From contig ONAV01000015.1 of assembly GCA_900315925.1 (NCBI GenBank), positions 1 through 49,625 of the forward strand: 49,625 nt of DNA. The letters are read 5' to 3'. Source of the stretch: an uncultured Selenomonadales bacterium (GTDB lineage: Bacteria > Bacillota > Negativicutes > Acidaminococcales > Acidaminococcaceae). The position numbers and the translations under genes were made by a program. This document shows, in pieces, positions 42,824 to 49,625 of this stretch (its first letter is position 1; every line of letters begins with the position of its first letter). Below the pieces are notes generated by a model. The model was given only the letters and a program-made list of their open reading frames with translations, was not told the DNA's origin and did no database searches.

Positions 42824-43438
42824 TTGGATTTTTCTGAATTAAAAAAGTTTCCCTGGAATCCCGAAATATACCTTGCCCAACAGGGCGACACAAAGGCCAT
42901 GCGGCGTACTTGCGCCAAAGCAGAGCCGATTGTCGACCAGTTCGGCAAGGTATCTTATTTTGTGAATTTGCTGGGGAAGGATGAGGTGCGCAGCATTGCG
43001 TCCCTCTCGTTGGTGGAGTTTGTTATGAGCTACCCGGGGGGCGTTCCCGATGAGGAAGTTCCCGCCCTGATCAAGCAGGCCATCAAATGCGATCTCATTA
43101 ACAGCGTGCACCGGCTGGAGTACCGTCGGGGCAAAGAAGAGGCGCCGCCCACTAATGGGGACACCGGCTCGCCGGAGAACAGCTCCGGTGATACCGGCTC
43201 GCCTTCCGCGCCCCCTTACGGGGAACCGGAAGCCTGCCTGTTACAGAACGCATATGCCCAAACGGTACAGGACGCCATTCAGCACCTGAACCGGAACGAG
43301 CAGACCGTCATCCAGTTTTATTATTTCCGCCAGGAAACCACCAATGAGATTGCAGTCCGGTTAGGCTGCTCTGTGCAAAACGTGCGGAAAATTAAACGCA
43401 GGGCCTTAACCCGCCTGCGCAGTTTGCTGGAACGTTAG
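42824..43438 (+). CDS. Sigma-70 region 4-like protein
   Basis: 204 residues from a TTG at 42824. The site AAAGGAG is 13 bases upstream, longer than usual, and no in-frame ATG is nearer. The C-terminal ~50 residues form a sigma region 4 HTH (LNRNEQTVIQFYYFRQETTN, EIAVRLGCSVQNVRKIKRRA). The N-terminal part shows no clear region 2. The middle has a repeated GDTGSP linker. Phages of Firmicutes use such proteins (ArpU/sigma-like) as late regulators. A hairpin directly follows the stop (43438-43457). Confidence 0.75.
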   Translation: MDFSELKKFPWNPEIYLAQQGDTKAMRRTCAKAEPIVDQFGKVSYFVNLLGKDEVRSIASLSLVEFVMSYPGGVPDEEVPALIKQAIKCDLINSVHRLEYRRGKEEAPPTNGDTGSPENSSGDTGSPSAPPYGEPEACLLQNAYAQTVQDAIQHLNRNEQTVIQFYYFRQETTNEIAVRLGCSVQNVRKIKRRALTRLRSLLER

Positions 43439-43470
43439 ACGAACAAAAAGGTTCGTCGCGGTTTGCTGTG

Positions 43471-43522
43471 ACATTCCGGTCCCGATGTGAGATCCCGTCG
43501 GGGCCGGAATGTTATTTTTATT
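43471..43522 (+). terminator. Rho-independent terminator after the sigma-like gene
   Basis: Stem ACATTCCGG (43471-43479)/CCGGAATGT (43504-43512), extended by CCCGA/TCGGG, followed by TATTTTTATT. Confidence 0.85.
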
Positions 43523-43585
43523 GCAAAAAAAAAGAGCAGCGGCATGCGCTGCAATCAAAATAAGATTTCGGAGGTTTTGAAATTT

Positions 43586-44344
43586 ATGCAAGTGTGTATC
43601 GACACGCTGAAAGAATACGGTCTCATCGTGGAAAAGGACGGCAAGTTGTTTCTCGAAATCAGCGAGGCTGAGAAAACGAAACGAAAGGGCCAAAGAAAAG
43701 AAAAAGAAGCAATATATAATATTATTAATAATATTAATACTATGAATAAGTCATATGACCATACTTCATACTTCACAAGAGAGGGAAATGAGGAAAAGCG
43801 CAACGGACAGCCGGAGGATCCGCTGTACAATGAGGAGGGCCGGAACTGTCTTCCTTTTGCGCCCGGAGAAGAAACGGACCGGAACACCTGGATCCCCCTG
43901 AGGGAACTGCCGGAGGACTGCCGCCGGGTTGTGAGCGCCTGGAACCGGCTGCACCTGAAAACCTTTTACGGCCTCTACCCTGCTGTGCTGGAAAAGGTGC
44001 AGCGCCTGCTGCAGCAGTATGATGTGGAAACGGTGATCACGGGCATTGCTTTTGTGGCCGACAGTTCCTTTCTGTTGGGCAGAAGCAAATACAAGGGGTT
44101 CAAGATCACCCTGGGCTGGCTGCTGGCTCCGGATCATTTTGCCAATGTGCTGAGCGGAAAGTATGAGGACCAGTTTGACGAGTACGACCAGTGGCTGGAC
44201 GGGGAACCTCTCCCCCCTTCCCTCACGGGCGAAGCGACGGAGCGCCTCATGTCCCGGGAGGAACGCCATCAGGCGGTGGAAGAGTTGATGAATCCCCAGA
44301 CGCCGGAAAAGTTGGAAGCAGCCCGTTTGCTGAAGCTGAAGTAA
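43586..44344 (+). CDS. Phage replisome-organiser/DnaD-like protein, short N-terminus
   Basis: 252 residues from ATG 43586, with GGAGG 11 bases upstream. The opening MQVCIDTLKEYGLIVEKDGK looks like the end of the winged-helix domain of phage replisome organisers, so the first ~80 residues of such proteins seem missing. A linker rich in K, N and I follows. The C-terminal domain (about 110-210: LPEDCRRVVSAWNRLHLKTF, YKGFKITLGWLLAPDHFANV) is typical of replication proteins that recruit the helicase loader. It lies 18 bases before the loader gene. Confidence 0.7.
   Translation: MQVCIDTLKEYGLIVEKDGKLFLEISEAEKTKRKGQRKEKEAIYNIINNINTMNKSYDHTSYFTREGNEEKRNGQPEDPLYNEEGRNCLPFAPGEETDRNTWIPLRELPEDCRRVVSAWNRLHLKTFYGLYPAVLEKVQRLLQQYDVETVITGIAFVADSSFLLGRSKYKGFKITLGWLLAPDHFANVLSGKYEDQFDEYDQWLDGEPLPPSLTGEATERLMSREERHQAVEELMNPQTPEKLEAARLLKLK
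43708..43746. other. AT-only tract inside the replication gene
   Basis: About 39 bases almost purely A/T (GCAATATATAATATTATTAA and on) encode NIINNINTMN. A local unwinding element is conceivable, since phage origins often lie inside the initiator gene. No iterons were seen. Confidence 0.35.
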
Positions 44345-44362
44345 GAGGAGGCGCAACGGGTT

Positions 44363-45106
44363 ATGAAAGAGCAACTGAACGTGAAAGATTTTTCCCGGAT
44401 GCAGAAGCGCCGCAAGGCCATGGAGCTGGATGTGATGATCCACTGGGATTTTGAGCACGACAACGGCGAAGACCCCCGGGCCCGGGAGCTGGCCATGACC
44501 ATGGTGGAACAGTTTCCCGCCTTGCGGAAGAACGGCACGGGCCTGTTTCTGTACGGCGGGCCCCGGGCGGGCAAAAGTTATATGGCCGCCGAAATTGTGA
44601 ATGCGCTGACGGACCGGGGCTACAAGTGTTACATGACCAGCCTGCTGGGGTTGTTCAACTGCCTGAGCAACCGCAACGGGGAAATGCGCAGCCGTCTGCT
44701 GGAGGCCCTGTTCGAGCTGGACCTTCTGGTGCTGGACGACTTCGGCCTGCAGGCGGGCACGCAGCTGAACGACCAGACGCTGCTGTACATCGTCACCACC
44801 TGCCAGAAGCTGCGCATCCCTCTCATCGTGATCACCCACCACAGTCCGGATGAGCTGATGGCGGCCGGCAAGGACGGAAAGCCGCCGGTGTTGGTGAGCC
44901 ACATTCGCCGCTGCGCGCTGGATTTTAATGTGATCATGCCGGCGGCGCGGCGGAGACGGATGTTGCAGATGAAAAAAGACACGAGGCAGATGCTGCATGC
45001 GGACGCGAATGCAAATGCAAATGGGAACGGGAACGCAAATGCAAATGCAAATGCGAATGCAAAAAAAGATGCGCCGGTGCAGCAGGAACTGCCGTTAAAA
45101 GAATAA
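44363..45106 (+). CDS. DnaC/IstB-like ATP-binding helicase loader
   Basis: 247 residues. AAA+ ATPase: Walker A GGPRAGKS near residue 65, Walker B LLVLDDFG near 125, sensor motif VITHHSPDEL. It loads the DnaB helicase encoded next (25-base gap). The C-terminal tail is an Asn/Ala repeat (ANANANGNGNANANANANA) from hexanucleotide repeats, then a QQELPLKE end. Confidence 0.85.
   Translation: MKEQLNVKDFSRMQKRRKAMELDVMIHWDFEHDNGEDPRARELAMTMVEQFPALRKNGTGLFLYGGPRAGKSYMAAEIVNALTDRGYKCYMTSLLGLFNCLSNRNGEMRSRLLEALFELDLLVLDDFGLQAGTQLNDQTLLYIVTTCQKLRIPLIVITHHSPDELMAAGKDGKPPVLVSHIRRCALDFNVIMPAARRRRMLQMKKDTRQMLHADANANANGNGNANANANANAKKDAPVQQELPLKE
45004..45062. repeat. GCAAAT-type hexanucleotide repeat
   Basis: About ten units of GCAAAT/GGAACG/GCGAAT at the 3' end of the loader gene. 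As the unit is 6 bases, length changes keep frame and alter only the Ala-Asn tail. Confidence 0.85.
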
Positions 45107-45131
45107 AAAAAATTGGAAAGGAGCTGATGAA

Positions 45132-46532
45132 ATGCAGGAATGCAAGATTCCTCAAAATATAACTGCGGAGCAAAATGTGCTCAGCGCGATGTTGATCGGT
45201 GCAAAGGTGATCGACAAGGTGGCGGAGATTCTGAAGCCGGAAGATTTTTACCGCCCCTCCCACCGGATTATTTATCAGGTTATGCTGGCGCTGCACGCCA
45301 AAGAGCAGCCGGTGGATCTGATCACTGTGATTGAAGAACTGAAACGCCGGAACAAGCTGGACGATGTGGGCGGCGTAAATTATGTGACCCTTTTGGGGGA
45401 ACTGGCCGTTACGGCGGCCAATGTGGAATGGCATGCAAAAATTGTGGCGGACGAGGCGGTGCTGCGGCAGGTGGCGGAAGGCTGCAACGAAATTGCCTCG
45501 CTGGCCTGCGGGGGAAACGGTAAGAGTCCCCGGGAGATTCTGGGCATGATGGAGCAGAAGGTGCTGGGCCTCACCGCACAGAACCACAGTAACGGACTAA
45601 AGCAGCTGCGTGACGCCATTGGCGAGAACATGGACGCCATGAGCCGCCAGTTGGAACGGCACGAAACCGTTACGGGACTACCCACCGGGTTTCCCCAGCT
45701 GGATCACCTGACCGGCGGCCTTCACTCTTCGGATTTTATTATTCTGGCGGCCCGGCCTTCCATGGGGAAAACTTCGCTGGGGCTGAACATTACCGAAAAC
45801 GTGGCCCTTCGCGGCGCCAAAGAGGGAGAAGCGCCCAAACGGGTGGTGCTGTTCAGTTTGGAGATGAGCCGCAACCAGCTGGTGAAGCGCATGATTCGCA
45901 CCGAGGCGGACGTGGGCGAAGAGGAATTGTGTCCCCATCGATCCCACGCGTCGTTTGCCCCGGCGCAGCCCGAAGCGGATGCACAAGAGATGGAAGTGCT
46001 GGATCGGTTATGGACTGCTTCGGACAAACTGGCCGGCGCCAGCGTGTTCATTGACGACACGCCCGGCCTGACACTGCAGGAATTACGTTCCAAAGCCCGG
46101 AAGCTGAAAACCGAGGGCGGACTGGATCTGATCGTCATCGACTACCTGCAGCTGATGCGGGGCGCCACGCAGCATGGCGGCTTTGAAAATCGTCAGCACG
46201 AGGTTTCGGCCATCAGTCGGGGCCTGAAGGCGCTGGCCCGGGAGCTGAACGTGCCGGTGCTGGCCCTCAGCCAGTTGAGCCGCAGCGTGGAGAACCGGCA
46301 AGAGAAGCGCCCCATGCTCAGCGACTTGCGGGAAAGCGGATCGCTGGAACAGGACGCGGACATCGTACTGTTTTTGTATCGGGAGGATTATTATAAAAAC
46401 ACCTGGAAGGAAGCGCTCCACCCCACGGAGCTGATCATCGCCAAGCATCGCAACGGCCCCACCGGAAAAATTGATTTGTTCTTCAAGAGCGACTGCACGA
46501 AGTTCATCGGTTTGGATGAAGAAGCAGTGTGA
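45132..46532 (+). CDS. dnaB: Replicative DNA helicase, DnaB family
   Basis: 466-residue hexameric 5'-3' helicase. N-terminal domain NITAEQNVLSAMLIGAKVID; RecA-like core with Walker A ARPSMGKTSL, LFSLEMSRNQLVKRM, Walker B LIVIDYLQLM, LSQLSRSVENRQEKRPMLSD and DLRESGSLEQDADIVLFLYR. AAAGGAG precedes ATG 45132. With the preceding two genes it forms a phage-type replication cassette rather than the housekeeping dnaB, whose usual neighbours (rplI) are absent. Confidence 0.95.
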   Translation: MQECKIPQNITAEQNVLSAMLIGAKVIDKVAEILKPEDFYRPSHRIIYQVMLALHAKEQPVDLITVIEELKRRNKLDDVGGVNYVTLLGELAVTAANVEWHAKIVADEAVLRQVAEGCNEIASLACGGNGKSPREILGMMEQKVLGLTAQNHSNGLKQLRDAIGENMDAMSRQLERHETVTGLPTGFPQLDHLTGGLHSSDFIILAARPSMGKTSLGLNITENVALRGAKEGEAPKRVVLFSLEMSRNQLVKRMIRTEADVGEEELCPHRSHASFAPAQPEADAQEMEVLDRLWTASDKLAGASVFIDDTPGLTLQELRSKARKLKTEGGLDLIVIDYLQLMRGATQHGGFENRQHEVSAISRGLKALARELNVPVLALSQLSRSVENRQEKRPMLSDLRESGSLEQDADIVLFLYREDYYKNTWKEALHPTELIIAKHRNGPTGKIDLFFKSDCTKFIGLDEEAV

Positions 46533-46614: not shown

Positions 46615-46902
46615 TTAAGTTAAGCTAAATTGTTGTTTTCGTAACCATAGACGCTTCCGCCGGCTCCGCCTTTTATCACCGCGTGAGAGCCAAATTACAT
46701 GATGTACTTCCAAATATGGATTCCCGTTCTTATCAATAAATGGAGCAGCCTTTTCTATCTGGGCAAACAGATACGTTTCCGCTTCCTCTTTTGTCAGCTC
46801 ATAACCGCCGGTCTTTGCCAGTGCAATCAGTTCATCGGCAGTTTTGCACTGCATGGCTTTTTCAATCATTTCTTTTGTGATTTCGTTTTTGTTGATTGGC
46901 AT
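46615..46902 (-). pseudogene. Nif11-type precursor 1, leader joined to an HNH fragment
   Basis: Starts at ATG 46902 after GAGGGGGG. Residues 1-44 are the array's Nif11 leader (MPINKNEITKEMIEKAMQCK...). From about residue 46 the sequence becomes an HNH-nuclease core fragment (APFIDKNGNPYLEVHHVIWL, HH at 67-68), then a basic tail without the expected zinc cysteines. In another frame, 46620-46670 reads KGGAGG then SVYGYENNNLA and a stop, which looks like the lost leader end and core. So the gene is a mosaic and probably nonfunctional, or shows that a piece of sequence is missing. Confidence 0.65.
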
Positions 46903-46957
46903 TTTCAGAACCCCCCTCAAGAATTAAAGAAACTGTACTTTCGTAGTACATTCTTAT

Positions 46958-46995
46958 TATAACAAAACAGCTGCAGAAATTAAATCCACGGCTGT
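46958..46995 (-). terminator. ACAGCCG-family terminator after precursor 2
   Basis: Arms ACAGCTG (46967-46973)/CGGCTGT (46989-46995) with TTTTGTTATAAT following on the minus strand. Shares flanking sequence (GAATCATTT.CTG.GCAAAAT) with the copy at 49359. Confidence 0.65.
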
Positions 46996-47053
46996 TGAAT
47001 CATTTTCTGTGCAAAATCAGGATTTTTTAACTAATTTTTCTGATTAGTATCCT

Positions 47054-47320
47054 TCAACCCTGATTATTATTGCTATAAATACAATCTATGCCACATTCAT
47101 GTGGATTTCGAATATTATCCCAGCAAATGCCACCAGCGACCTTTTTCAGGGTTTCCTCGTTCAGCTCGACATCAGCCAACTCCGCCATGTAAGCCTCGGC
47201 TTCGTCTTTGGTAATTTCGTAACCGCCTGTCTTCGCCAGCTCCATCAGTTCGTCGGCAGTCTTGCACTGCATGGCCTTTTCAATCTGTTCTTTTGTAAGC
47301 TCTTTTTTGTTAATTGGCAT
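47054..47320 (-). CDS. Nif11-type RiPP precursor peptide 2
   Basis: 88 residues, with GAGGAGGGG before ATG 47320. Leader MPINKKELTKEQIEKAMQCK ... LKKVAGG (AGG at 62-64) matches the Nif11/nitrile-hydratase-type leader family. The predicted 24-residue core begins ICWDNIRNPHECG, has three cysteines (66, 76, 80) and ends in SNNNQG. Cys/Asn/Asp-rich cores fit lanthipeptide or radical-SAM modification; the enzyme is not in the window. Confidence 0.85.
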   Translation of the reverse strand: MPINKKELTKEQIEKAMQCKTADELMELAKTGGYEITKDEAEAYMAELADVELNEETLKKVAGGICWDNIRNPHECGIDCIYSNNNQG

Positions 47321-47382
47321 GATGTTCCCCTCCTCAAAAAAACAATAATTAATATCTCTTATCTAACACTGTTATTCTACAC

Positions 47383-47636
47383 TCATGCTTCATTTTCTGA
47401 TTCCTCCGCTACATCAAGATTTGTAATAGCACGGTCAGAGAATGAATCAGTTTCCGGGCATCCGCAATGCGCAGCCATCCGCCAATGTCTGCCAGCTCCG
47501 CCATGTACGCCTCAGCCTCTTCATTTGTAATCTCGAAGCCTTCGGTCTTCGCCAACGCAATCAGCTCGTCGACGGTCTTGCACTGCATAGCTTTTTCAAT
47601 CATTTCTTTTGTGAGTTCGTTTTTGTTAATCGGCAT
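47383..47636 (-). pseudogene. Nif11-type precursor 3, altered after residue 51
   Basis: ATG 47636 after GAGGG. The leader is normal to ELADI (residue 51), then the segment expected to end in VAGG is missing. The direct frame continues GGWLRIADARKLIHSLTVLL and stops at 47409 without cysteines. A third frame over the same DNA reads MAAHCGCPETDSFSDRAITN and on to 47383, a more core-like sequence with a CGC motif. A small out-of-frame deletion near 47483 would explain this. Confidence 0.6.
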
Positions 47637-47656
47637 GATAAAACCCTCCCCGTCTC

Positions 47657-47695
47657 AAACAAAACTCCCGCCTGAAAACAGGAAGGACGGGAGTT
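47657..47695 (-). terminator. Terminator after the exported protein gene
   Basis: 8-bp stem AACTCCCG (47663-47670)/CGGGAGTT (47688-47695) with an inner CCTG/CAGG stem; TTTTGTTTG follows on the minus strand. Confidence 0.8.
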
Positions 47696-47760
47696 CGAGA
47701 TCATAAAAAAACCTTAATAGTTATACAATACTCCGTTTTCGCCGTACCGTATAATATCCG

Positions 47761-48219
47761 TTAATTAAGAACGCCGCATTTTATTTCCGTTACTTTGCCA
47801 TATTTAATTTCAATCTTTAACCCGATGCCCTGCATCCCTTCGGCATAATAAATAAAATCTTCTTCGTGGATGAAATCCGGTTCGCCGTAGGCACTTTTTA
47901 CCATATCCATACTGGCGCCCAGACCGATACCGGCCTTTGTTTTGGCATCACTGAAATCATCGGCCTTGATTTTGGTTAATTTACCGTTTACAAATTCAAA
48001 ATCCAGGGAGTTGCCGTATTCGTATTCTACTTTTTCCCCGTAGGATTTCATTTCACGCTCGGATTTTCTGGGACGTCCATAGGCATTTTCAACGGCGCTG
48101 ATAGAAGCTCCGTACGGAATTCCCCCAAGTTCCAGCTGGTTTGCGGGTACCGTGGCAAAGCAGGTTGAACCTGCGAGAAGCGCAACACCTGTAACAACAG
48201 TTAATAACAGTTTTTTCAA
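47761..48219 (-). CDS. Exported BamE/SmpA-like protein inside the precursor array
   Basis: 152 residues from a TTG at 48219, with AGGAGG 9 bases upstream. A clear Sec signal peptide (KKLLLTVVTGVALLAGSTCFA) is followed by two similar units, GIPYGASISAVENAYGRP and GIGLGASMDMVKSAYGEP. These resemble the G.s...v...yG.P motif of small SmpA/BamE-like periplasmic domains. Located between precursors 3 and 4 with its own terminator. Could serve immunity, export or be unrelated. Confidence 0.75.
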   Translation of the reverse strand: MKKLLLTVVTGVALLAGSTCFATVPANQLELGGIPYGASISAVENAYGRPRKSEREMKSYGEKVEYEYGNSLDFEFVNGKLTKIKADDFSDAKTKAGIGLGASMDMVKSAYGEPDFIHEEDFIYYAEGMQGIGLKIEIKYGKVTEIKCGVLN

Positions 48220-48278
48220 CTTTGTTGTCCTCCTGTAAATTTTAGTAAATACAATCCGTCTGTCATTCTTTGTCTAAT

Positions 48279-48530
48279 CTAATCCCTGCAGGGGCAACCG
48301 TCGCCACAATTATCCAGGCAATGCCAGCAGGCATTGCTACCGCCGGCAACACTCTTCAGCGCTTTTTCGTCCAGCTCAATGTCGGCAAGTTCCGCCAGAT
48401 AGGCTTCTGCTTCGGCTTTGGTAATCTCAGCGCCTTCAGACTTTGCCAGCGCCATTAAGTCTTCCGCGGTTTTACATTGCATGGCCTTTGCAATCATTTC
48501 TTTTGTGAGGCCGTTTTTGTTAACCGGCAT
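48279..48530 (-). CDS. Nif11-type RiPP precursor peptide 4
   Basis: 83 residues, with GAGGAGG before ATG 48530. Leader MPVNKNGLTKEMIAKAMQCK ... LKSVAGG. The core SNACWHCLDNCGDGCPCRD has five cysteines in 19 residues (68, 71, 75, 79, 81), the most cysteine-rich of the array. Confidence 0.9.
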   Translation of the reverse strand: MPVNKNGLTKEMIAKAMQCKTAEDLMALAKSEGAEITKAEAEAYLAELADIELDEKALKSVAGGSNACWHCLDNCGDGCPCRD

Positions 48531-48631
48531 GATGAAATCCTCCTCATAAGAAAATACTTAATTGGAATAAAGCCAGTTTAATTTTTCAAACCTGAAACCG
48601 GTTTATTTCTTCAACCCTGAAAATATCACTC

Positions 48632-48868
48632 TTAATTGCTCAACGTCCAGCAATCGGTGCCTTCCAATGTGCAAGTGCCGCCCGCTACGTTCCGCAGCGC
48701 TTTTTCGTCCAGCTCAACGTCGGCCAGTTCCGCGAAATAGGCTTCCGCTTCATCCTTCGTAATCTCAAACCCTTCCGCCTTTGCCAGCGCCATCAGCTCG
48801 TCGACAGTCTTGCACTGCATAGCCTTCGCAATCATTTCTTTTGTGAGCTCATTTTTGTTGATTGGCAT
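48632..48868 (-). CDS. Nif11-type RiPP precursor peptide 5
   Basis: 78 residues from ATG 48868 (GAGGGG upstream). Leader to LRNVAGG (AGG 62-64), then core TCTLEGTDCWTLSN with two Cys, three Thr and one Ser, a composition suited to thioether formation. Confidence 0.9.
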   Translation of the reverse strand: MPINKNELTKEMIAKAMQCKTVDELMALAKAEGFEITKDEAEAYFAELADVELDEKALRNVAGGTCTLEGTDCWTLSN

Positions 48869-48974
48869 AATTTTCCCCTCCTCATTATAACGCTTCAAGC
48901 GGTTCCATATCCGTTTTTCCAGTTCTTCGTTTTCTGCGGAAAAATCCACGGCTGTCAGAAAAACAGAAAAATCT

Positions 48975-49205
48975 TCACATCATATCATCCAGGGAAGTTC
49001 TCATATAACACTCACCACCGGCAATATTCTTAAGTGCTCTATCATCTAATTCAAAATCAGACAATTCCGTCATGTAAGCTTCCGCTTCCTCTTTTGTCAT
49101 CTCATAACCGCCTGTCTTTGCCAATGTAATCAGTTCATCGGCCGATTTGCACTGTATCGCTTTTTCCAGCATTTCTTTTGTGAGTTCATTTTTGTTGATT
49201 GGCAT
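48975..49205 (-). CDS. Nif11-type RiPP precursor peptide 6
   Basis: 76 residues from ATG 49205 (GAGGAGG upstream). Leader to LKNIAGG; short core ECYMRTSLDDMM with one Cys, one Thr, one Ser. A degenerate ACAGCCG hairpin follows at about 48940-48965. Confidence 0.88.
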   Translation of the reverse strand: MPINKNELTKEMLEKAIQCKSADELITLAKTGGYEMTKEEAEAYMTELSDFELDDRALKNIAGGECYMRTSLDDMM

Positions 49206-49350
49206 AATGAAATCCTCCTCCATAAATTTTATTTTAAATGCCTTTTATTAATATATACAAAACAGGCTCATCAAAATTGACATTGATGGAAATGCTTTTT
49301 TTATTATATCATGCTAATCTTCGAAAAGCAAAACTGGAATTTGTCATACT

Positions 49351-49389
49351 AAAACAAAACAGCCGTGGATGTTGAAGTTCCACGACTGT
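49351..49389 (-). terminator. ACAGCCG-family terminator after precursor 7
   Basis: Stem ACAGCCGTGG (49359-49368)/CCACGACTGT (49380-49389) with one wobble pair; TTTGTTTT follows on the minus strand. Confidence 0.7.
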
Positions 49390-49447
49390 CGAATCATTTA
49401 CTGCGCAAAATTGGAATCTGTCTTTTACTTGCCAGGCAGGAGACCGA

Positions 49448-49625
49448 TCAAAAATAGCCGTCATTTACGCAGGTTTGATTCTTCGGAAGAACACCACCCG
49501 CAACATGTCTAAGCTGTCCGTCTTTTATTTCACATTCCGATAACTCGGCAAGGTAAGCTTCCGCTTCGGCTTCTGTAATTTCAATTCCTTCTGATTTGGC
49601 TAACGTAATCAGCTCTTCCGCTGTT
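49448..49625 (-). CDS. Nif11-type RiPP precursor peptide 7 (5' end beyond window)
   Basis: The last 58 codons are visible: TAEELITLAKSEGIEITEAE ... LRHVAGG, then core VLPKNQTCVNDGYF with one Cys. The leader C-terminus (ECEIKDGQ) is the most divergent of the array. Confidence 0.85.
   Translation of the reverse strand, partial: TAEELITLAKSEGIEITEAEAEAYLAELSECEIKDGQLRHVAGGVLPKNQTCVNDGYF

Follow-up and report, generated by a model that had tools for sequence, protein, structure and literature searches.

The stretch of DNA analysed here (the window) is a complete contig, C48, of 49,625 bp, from a Succiniclasticum genome (2.56 Mb in 100 contigs, 88% complete). At positions 46615–49625 it carries seven minus-strand open reading frames (ORFs), p1–p3 and p5–p8, with a common leader of the Nif11 type (Table 1). 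The initial annotation of the sequence had taken all seven for precursors of ribosomally synthesized and post-translationally modified peptides (RiPPs). The shared leader is indeed present; our leader profile (84 positions, built from 23 of this genome's leaders) gave 31 matches in the genome, with E-values from 3e-39 to 2e-21, far above chance. The four core types described initially, with 5, 3, 2 and 1 cysteines, were also correct (p5, p2, p6 and p7/p8, respectively). However, only p2, p5, p6, p7 and p8 have a GG site followed by a core, and the contig end truncates p8, removing its first ~20 residues. The other two are broken. Compared with a gene on an IMG/VR contig (L181; 99.3% identity over 135 bp of leader), p1 lacks 91 bp comprising the GG site and the start of the core, and p3 lacks 53 bp of the same region compared with loci from the genomes RGIG2291 (L184) and Succiniclasticum ruminis DSM 9236 (L188). 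Both deletions shift the frame and take away the GG site. The array is further broken up by a 152-aa protein without a leader, for which scans with Pfam/NCBIfam-type models gave no family over cut-off.

The Nif11 models gave a mixed picture for the seven leaders. TIGR03798 matched all seven (E 2.6e-4 to 1.1e-8), p6 alone (35.1 bits) exceeding the 32.3-bit cut-off, while the PF07862 cut-off was passed by p3 and p6 in a protein scan and by p1, p3 and p6 in a genome scan. The nearest solved structure to the leader profile was a Nif11 domain protein (9zn4, E 4.5e-4).

Table 1. Coordinates of the features discussed; positions without a locus name are those of the window.
Feature	Position	Strand	Remark
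p1, Nif11-type leader, broken; tail into McrA-like HNH nuclease piece	46615..46902	-	no GG site
p2, precursor, core ICWDNIRNPHECGIDCIYSNNNQG	47054..47320	-	profile E 3.8e-39
p3, Nif11-type leader, broken; out-of-frame core remnant	47409..47636	-	53-bp loss
152-aa protein, signal-peptide-like start, no leader, not a precursor	47761..48219	-	ORF list
p5, precursor, core SNACWHCLDNCGDGCPCRD	48279..48530	-	profile E 1.1e-36
p6, precursor, core TCTLEGTDCWTLSN	48632..48868	-	profile E 3.0e-39; TIGR03798 35.1 bits
p7, precursor, core ECYMRTSLDDMM	48975..49205	-	profile E 4.4e-39
Promoter-like shared element before p7	49248..49276	-	3 mismatches; 40 bp upstream of leader match
p8, precursor cut by contig end, core VLPKNQTCVNDGYF	49448..49625	-	E 2.2e-21 from model position 22
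Partner protein, example	L034:3220-5250		26 homologous ORFs
Hint fusion	L103:8590-9312
Hint fusion	L105:8546-9268
Hint fusion	L109:5601-6293
Hint fusion	L130:5204-6016
Hint fusion	L137:1890-2705
Hint fusion	L140:2283-3077
Hint fusion	L140:3088-3567
Hint fusion	L141:2922-3719
Hint fusion	L182:1470-2234
N-terminal extension	48632-48949
N-terminal extension	L083:2031-2378
N-terminal extension	L026:15530-15907
N-terminal extension	L092:4959-5366
N-terminal extension	L095:3855-4289
N-terminal extension	L137:156-428

The 31 leader matches are scattered over 12 contigs, and 28 of them retain a GG site and a core. Among 41 genomes (this one and 40 relatives) 11 had leader matches: 10 of the 14 genomes of the genus, some only 73–89% complete and including S. 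ruminis DSM 9236 (G004), RGIG7791 (G007) and RGIG2291 (G012), and 1 of the 27 outside it. In the class as a whole, matches were found in 10 of 200 genomes and 4 of 82 genera, and one genome outside the genus has 21. S. ruminis has 25, fragments included, while genome G010 holds two partial leaders only. All these counts are lower bounds; contigs frequently break at these repeats, and breaks lie at or near precursor genes at the ends of C48, C77 and contig C30 of genome G003 and at the starts of C23, C58 and C75. Precursors may thus be undercounted in metagenome assemblies. One of the leaders, on C40 (L030:15338-15718), runs on into a ~66-residue tail lacking both a leader GG site and cysteine.

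Modification and export genes had been suggested as possible neighbours past the array. The window, however, is the complete contig and cannot be extended, and the cluster that we found sits on another one, C9. In the order of transcription it encodes an HExxH protein (DUF7005), a SPASM radical-SAM protein, a 676-aa partner, a precursor (core VKTCYMVDGCAFKCGTLKDC), a TIGR03975 B12 radical-SAM protein (477.4 bits), two HlyD-like proteins, an NHLM transporter with a C39 peptidase and a second NHLM transporter. TIGR03796 (962.8 bits), TIGR03797 (737.7) and TIGR03794 (241.5), which together mark an NHLM export system, were, like TIGR03975, all over cut-off in this one cluster, and it contains the only C39 peptidase match in the genome. 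A second SPASM protein is encoded alone on C58 by an open 544-aa ORF (the reported stop falls before the ORF start), so the single promiscuous enzyme of the initial annotation gives way to two SPASM maturases. Lanthionine and azole chemistry, for which LanM and YcaO had been suggested as search targets, were rejected, as LanC-like proteins (PF05147) and YcaO (PF02624) were each found in 0 of the 14 genus genomes, incomplete ones (73–89%) among them. The case named beforehand as the one that would speak against the idea was a lack of modification or C39 genes near the precursors of relatives; instead, a precursor lies inside a maturation cluster in this genome, in S. ruminis DSM 9236 and in RGIG2291.

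These enzymes co-occur with the leaders. A SPASM maturase was found in 8 of the 10 leader-positive and none of the 4 leader-negative genomes of the genus (hypergeometric 15/1001, calculated by hand), and an NHLM exporter over cut-off in 6 and none, respectively; the B12 radical-SAM protein was present in 4 of 14. The CNFRCPYC motif and seven later cysteines were invariant in nine of nine aligned SPASM proteins. We scanned GTDB genomes with the SPASM alignment and kept the best 80 of 290 relatives, as 78 loci. Leader ORFs (188, some partial) occurred within the fetched flanks (up to 10 kb) of 63 of these loci, in many taxa. Judged by record titles, 58 of the 78 point to a ruminant, a species of the rumen or a series of rumen genomes (RUG, RUI and RGIG), 17 are unclear and 3 are non-ruminant. 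Strains that have the system include S. ruminis DSM 9236 and Selenomonas ruminantium HD4 and S137.

We analysed the composition of the cores, delimited by the GG pattern with ORFs lacking it excluded (250 ORFs kept, overlapping loci counted twice). Cysteine followed by tyrosine or tryptophan (C[YW]) was present in 16 of this genome's 28 cores, against a mean of 4.5 and a maximum of 12 in 2000 shuffles. The same enrichment was seen in 120 of 221 distinct cores (shuffles: mean 39.7, maximum 62), which are not independent of each other. The reverse order, [YW]C, was below its shuffled mean in both sets (2 of 28, mean 4.6; 27 of 221, mean 39.6).

To obtain an unbiased figure for recurrence, the cores of this genome were compared with 127 distinct cores found near maturases in other genera. 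Five of the 28 matched far above Cys-preserving shuffles (scores 80–150 versus null maxima of 41–62) and four more, p7 included, barely exceeded them; none of the window's five cores was among the strongly recurring ones. Three of the five have counterparts in another class or phylum: a KTCYM-type core in Spirochaetia (18/20) and Saccharofermentans (19/20), a YNICENYG-type core in Lachnospiraceae AC3007 (18/18) and an MCYSAG-type core in a metagenome-assembled genome (MAG) of Spirochaetaceae (18/22). For the remaining two, the counterparts are from different families within the class (23/28 and 13/18). In 16 cross-genus pairs, chosen for alike-looking cores and using some sequences repeatedly, 265 of 302 core residues were identical (pN 0.077, pS 0.82), compared with 494 of 847 in the leaders (pN 0.26, pS 0.74). 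Thus, the constant leader with divergent cores of the initial annotation describes a single genome, but between genera some cores are more conserved than their leaders. For the recurring subset, these substitution patterns fit old, strongly selected cores under diverging leaders, with a fixed function for each core. It is very improbable that such cross-taxon cores are merely an artefact of mis-binned metagenome contigs, even though the majority of the loci come from MAGs: YNICENYGQACPSYINVG is identical in this genome and in Lachnospiraceae bacterium AC3007, a record not labelled as a MAG, yet with 11 synonymous differences, the leaders of shared cores are strongly different, and the three named strains have the system too.

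Many of the scattered precursors have a ~45-bp element in common in their upstream regions, often preceded by a second promoter-like block that ends in TATGATATAAT. A 29-bp pattern of the element (three or fewer mismatches) gave 18 sites in 5 of the 14 genus genomes, and the reversed control gave none. Fifteen of the sites were 36–42 bp upstream of a leader match and one was 433 bp upstream of the C58 maturase ORF, while the remaining two lay 3 bp (G003) and 121 bp (contig C86 of G013) from contig ends; in our genome, 10 of 11 sites precede a leader. At this stringency the element was absent from five leader-positive genomes (G001, G002, G006, G011 and G012) and from G010. In 12 upstream regions, picked by eye from 30 listed, which raises the mean, the element was on average 84% identical, versus 37% at fourfold sites of the corresponding leaders (350/940). 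Since it is far more conserved than these sites, the element seems to be held by selection, beyond what recent copying would leave.

Taken together, we think it probable that the dispersed precursors, many of them switched on together, are matured in trans by SPASM radical-SAM enzymes and exported by the C39 transporter. Maturation in trans, in the manner of prochlorosins but with radical-SAM chemistry, is the most likely arrangement judging from the gene content. The array in the window would then be one of several dispersed precursor stores, each complete gene supplying a leader of ~64 residues ending in [VI][AS]GG and a short core, with the shared element, given its conservation, presumably co-inducing many of them. 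The SPASM maturases (on C9 with the partner, on C58 alone) would bind to the leader and modify the Cys-rich core, usually at a Cys-Tyr/Trp pair, making thioether or other Cys/aromatic cross-links. The HExxH and B12 radical-SAM proteins may add further changes, and the exporter, as expected of its family, would cut after GG and release the core, whose site of action would be outside the cell. Each of the cores shared across classes probably serves a conserved task.

Several observations weigh against this reading. No maturation enzyme was found on the window's contig, nothing indicates that a single maturase accepts all cores, and G002 (75% complete) and G010 (partial leaders) have leaders without a SPASM match. 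The zero leader count of G003 is doubtful, as its site 3 bp from the contig end is a perfect one. The promoter element was not found in the 704–800 bp before nine other maturase genes or operon starts, that of C9 included. In this genome, 19 of 28 cores had no match above shuffles in other genera, 12 had no C[YW] and two had no cysteine, and three of the 31 leaders (those of p1, p3 and the copy on C40) are without a usable core. In all three comparisons made within the genus, the core of p6 has changed faster than its leader (pN 0.06–0.13 versus 0.01–0.03). The last two points would also be expected if the scattered genes were mostly decaying duplicates, persisting by duplication and phage transfer, with only the precursor of the C9 cluster matured; broken copies with stops or truncated leaders in other genus genomes, and the copy carried by a phage lineage (see below), agree with such decay. 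We nevertheless consider it unlikely: a GG site and core are retained with 28 of the leaders, conservation of the promoter element far exceeds that of synonymous sites, three relatives of the genus have the p5 core with 18/19 identity, and some dispersed cores are conserved across classes with synonymous sites near saturation. The p2 core is likewise near-identical in RGIG2291 and S. ruminis (L187). There is also a slim chance that the cores are simple peptides resembling class II bacteriocins, which the C39 transporter cuts and exports unmodified (a GG leader being enough for this), and that the radical-SAM enzymes serve other substrates. The cores without C[YW] are in line with this, but the precursors adjoining a SPASM gene in the genus, the leader ORFs at most maturase loci, the directed Cys-aromatic motif and the Nif11-type leader, a known RiPP leader class, all argue for modification.

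The SPASM protein resembles the maturases of ranthipeptides and sactipeptides (CefB, NF038107; PapB, NF047865; CteB, 5wgg) in its SPASM domain, CxxxCxxC motif and Cys-rich substrates, and a thioether cross-link like theirs is a candidate product, judging from enzyme homology. It scored 120 bits to NF038107 and 87 bits to NF047865, far below the cut-offs of 600 and 340, and matched 5wgg with E 4.6e-15. These systems differ from ours in that here there are Nif11 leaders and, near 27 of the 78 maturase loci, a cluster-less partner. TIGR04064, a SPASM family named for maturation of Nif11-like peptides, was rejected as a home for the protein (64 bits versus a cut-off of 519).

The partner lacks CxxxCxxC in all 26 homologous ORFs (several partial), while the longer ones retain 7–11 cysteines in their last 110 residues; the protein keeps a SPASM-like tail and has an extra N-terminal domain. 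Its back half is related by sequence to SuiB (5v1q, E 1.5e-9), and an AlphaFold model (S. ruminantium S137, pLDDT 81) matched PqqE, SuiB and a sactipeptide maturase. The model also matched the fungal-type prenyltransferases AnaPT (rank 13, E 7.9e-5, rmsd 10.2) and CdpNPT (rank 43, E 5.7e-4, rmsd 6.9), with TM-scores by target of only 0.40–0.45, to which unrelated barrels such as GH84 come close. For the front ~310 residues, which have no match among Pfam and NCBIfam models, the prediction is ten strands with intervening helices, the pattern of an ABBA barrel. The partner may combine a prenyltransferase-type barrel with a radical-SAM/SPASM half that lacks the catalytic cluster motif, and we treat the prenyltransferase-like front of the model as a lead. 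The HExxH protein keeps its motif in 12 of 12 homologues. Its AlphaFold model (pLDDT 83) had no PDB match at E ≤ 0.001, and a peptidase and an alpha-ketoglutarate hydroxylase are both candidate roles. In one locus (L137:4473-5339) this protein starts with a partial Nif11-type leader.

The SPASM tree (76 rows, taxon labels read from record titles) showed 16 taxon-label changes against a minimum of 6, and its starred branches require 4 changes in Acidaminococcaceae, 7 in Selenomonadales and 4 in Lachnospiraceae. This excess suggests that the maturases probably moved between lineages; part of the pattern could be explained by loss, and some long branches are unsafe. It is possible, if on balance doubtful, that rumen bacteria of several classes and phyla share a stock of radical-SAM-modified peptides, whose cores are under purifying selection even as leaders and maturases grow apart (KTCYMVDGCAFKCGTLKDC-type in Negativicutes, Clostridia and Spirochaetia; YNICENYGQACPSYINVG in Negativicutes and Clostridia), and which are moved by phage or horizontal transfer and matured at the Cys-aromatic pair by the SPASM enzyme together with the new two-domain partner (prenyltransferase-barrel-like front, cluster-less radical-SAM/SPASM back). 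If so, each such core would be a standing molecule of rumen ecology (a signal, a metal scavenger or a bacteriocin with a fixed target) rather than a member of a random library. Systems with many precursors and few enzymes, such as that of prochlorosins, raise the question whether their products are meaningful molecules or a random library; here, the cores conserved across classes and phyla single out a few peptides that probably each have a fixed role. S. ruminis DSM 9236, cultured and possessing both leaders and cluster, makes the system testable.

The prochlorosin-like logic proposed initially is supported by the dispersed precursors and by the C39 exporter and modification enzymes elsewhere in the genome. 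As described in PMC10783134, prochlorosins and synechococsins have Nif11 ProcA/SyncA precursors with ProcM/SyncM, and share with our system a leader ending in GG and many diverse, scattered precursors served in trans by few enzymes (here 31 leaders on 12 contigs, two SPASM proteins and one C39 exporter). In contrast to them, SPASM radical-SAM proteins take the place of LanC-like ones here, the precursors have a shared promoter element, and some cores are conserved across phyla. NHLP/Nif11 clusters of anaerobes are the other relative, reportedly treated by Haft in 2010. In Letzel 2014 (PMC4289311) these have VAGG leaders, a peptidase-bearing transporter, radical-SAM proteins and, as here, several precursors (three listed for Eggerthella lenta), whereas ours number dozens over many contigs; that text does not contain the words Negativicutes, Selenomon or Acidaminococc. 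These two sources show that this class of leader, the exporter and the presence of radical-SAM proteins next to Nif11/NHLP precursors are already known. New here are the shared promoter element, the Cys-Tyr/Trp enrichment, the cores shared across classes and phyla, the Hint fusions and the phage-borne precursor described below. No paper describing dozens of dispersed precursors together with a shared promoter element, absence of LanM and cross-phylum cores turned up in the open PMC literature, searched by titles and abstract starts; most subscription papers lie outside this scope. In a survey of 8,160 rumen genomes (PMC8241843), Acidaminococcaceae account for 21.2% of what it labels 'bacteriocin' clusters, and Selenomonas clusters that it labels 'sactipeptide' are among those more expressed in less efficient steers; neither nif11 nor Succiniclasticum is mentioned in that text.

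A Hint-type domain follows the leader in nine ORFs (Table 1), which come from 8 of the 124 loci with leaders (some of these loci overlap). All three that were tested scored above the Pfam threshold for Hint_2 or Hint. In four of the nine a second Nif11-like stretch forms the end, one (L182) is from Succiniclasticum, and seven read TTESQ where a TxxH block would be expected. If confirmed, these fusions and the two-domain partner would be new protein architectures in RiPP biosynthesis.

Among 342 candidate stretches from IMG/VR, four loci encode a relative, three of them the same precursor protein (L178, L179 and L180:5989-6246). In L180, the one locus checked, it is encoded inside a phage genome, on the opposite strand, beside the large terminase gene and together with portal and head protease genes. 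The ORFs of L181 read as host DNA bordering a predicted provirus. In the window, genes for a phage-like sigma factor, a replication initiator, DnaC and DnaB (42824-46532) lie directly left of the array; a phage origin of the array was rejected, as it contains no whole phage gene. The nuclease-like tail of p1 is a 25-aa piece resembling McrA-type HNH nuclease (6ghc, E 4.9e-5). At the other side, joining the window to another contig was rejected because, of five loci from this genome compared with its last 200 bp, two matched, at the 75–76% identity of paralogues.

The frame of p6 stays open upstream to 48949, adding an N-terminal extension that is also in frame in relatives. Two proteins carrying such an extension gave no Pfam match over cut-off. 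The extension (MDxLFRxxDFSAENxxLxxRIW...) precedes some other leaders in frame as well and recurs in divergent lineages (Table 1).

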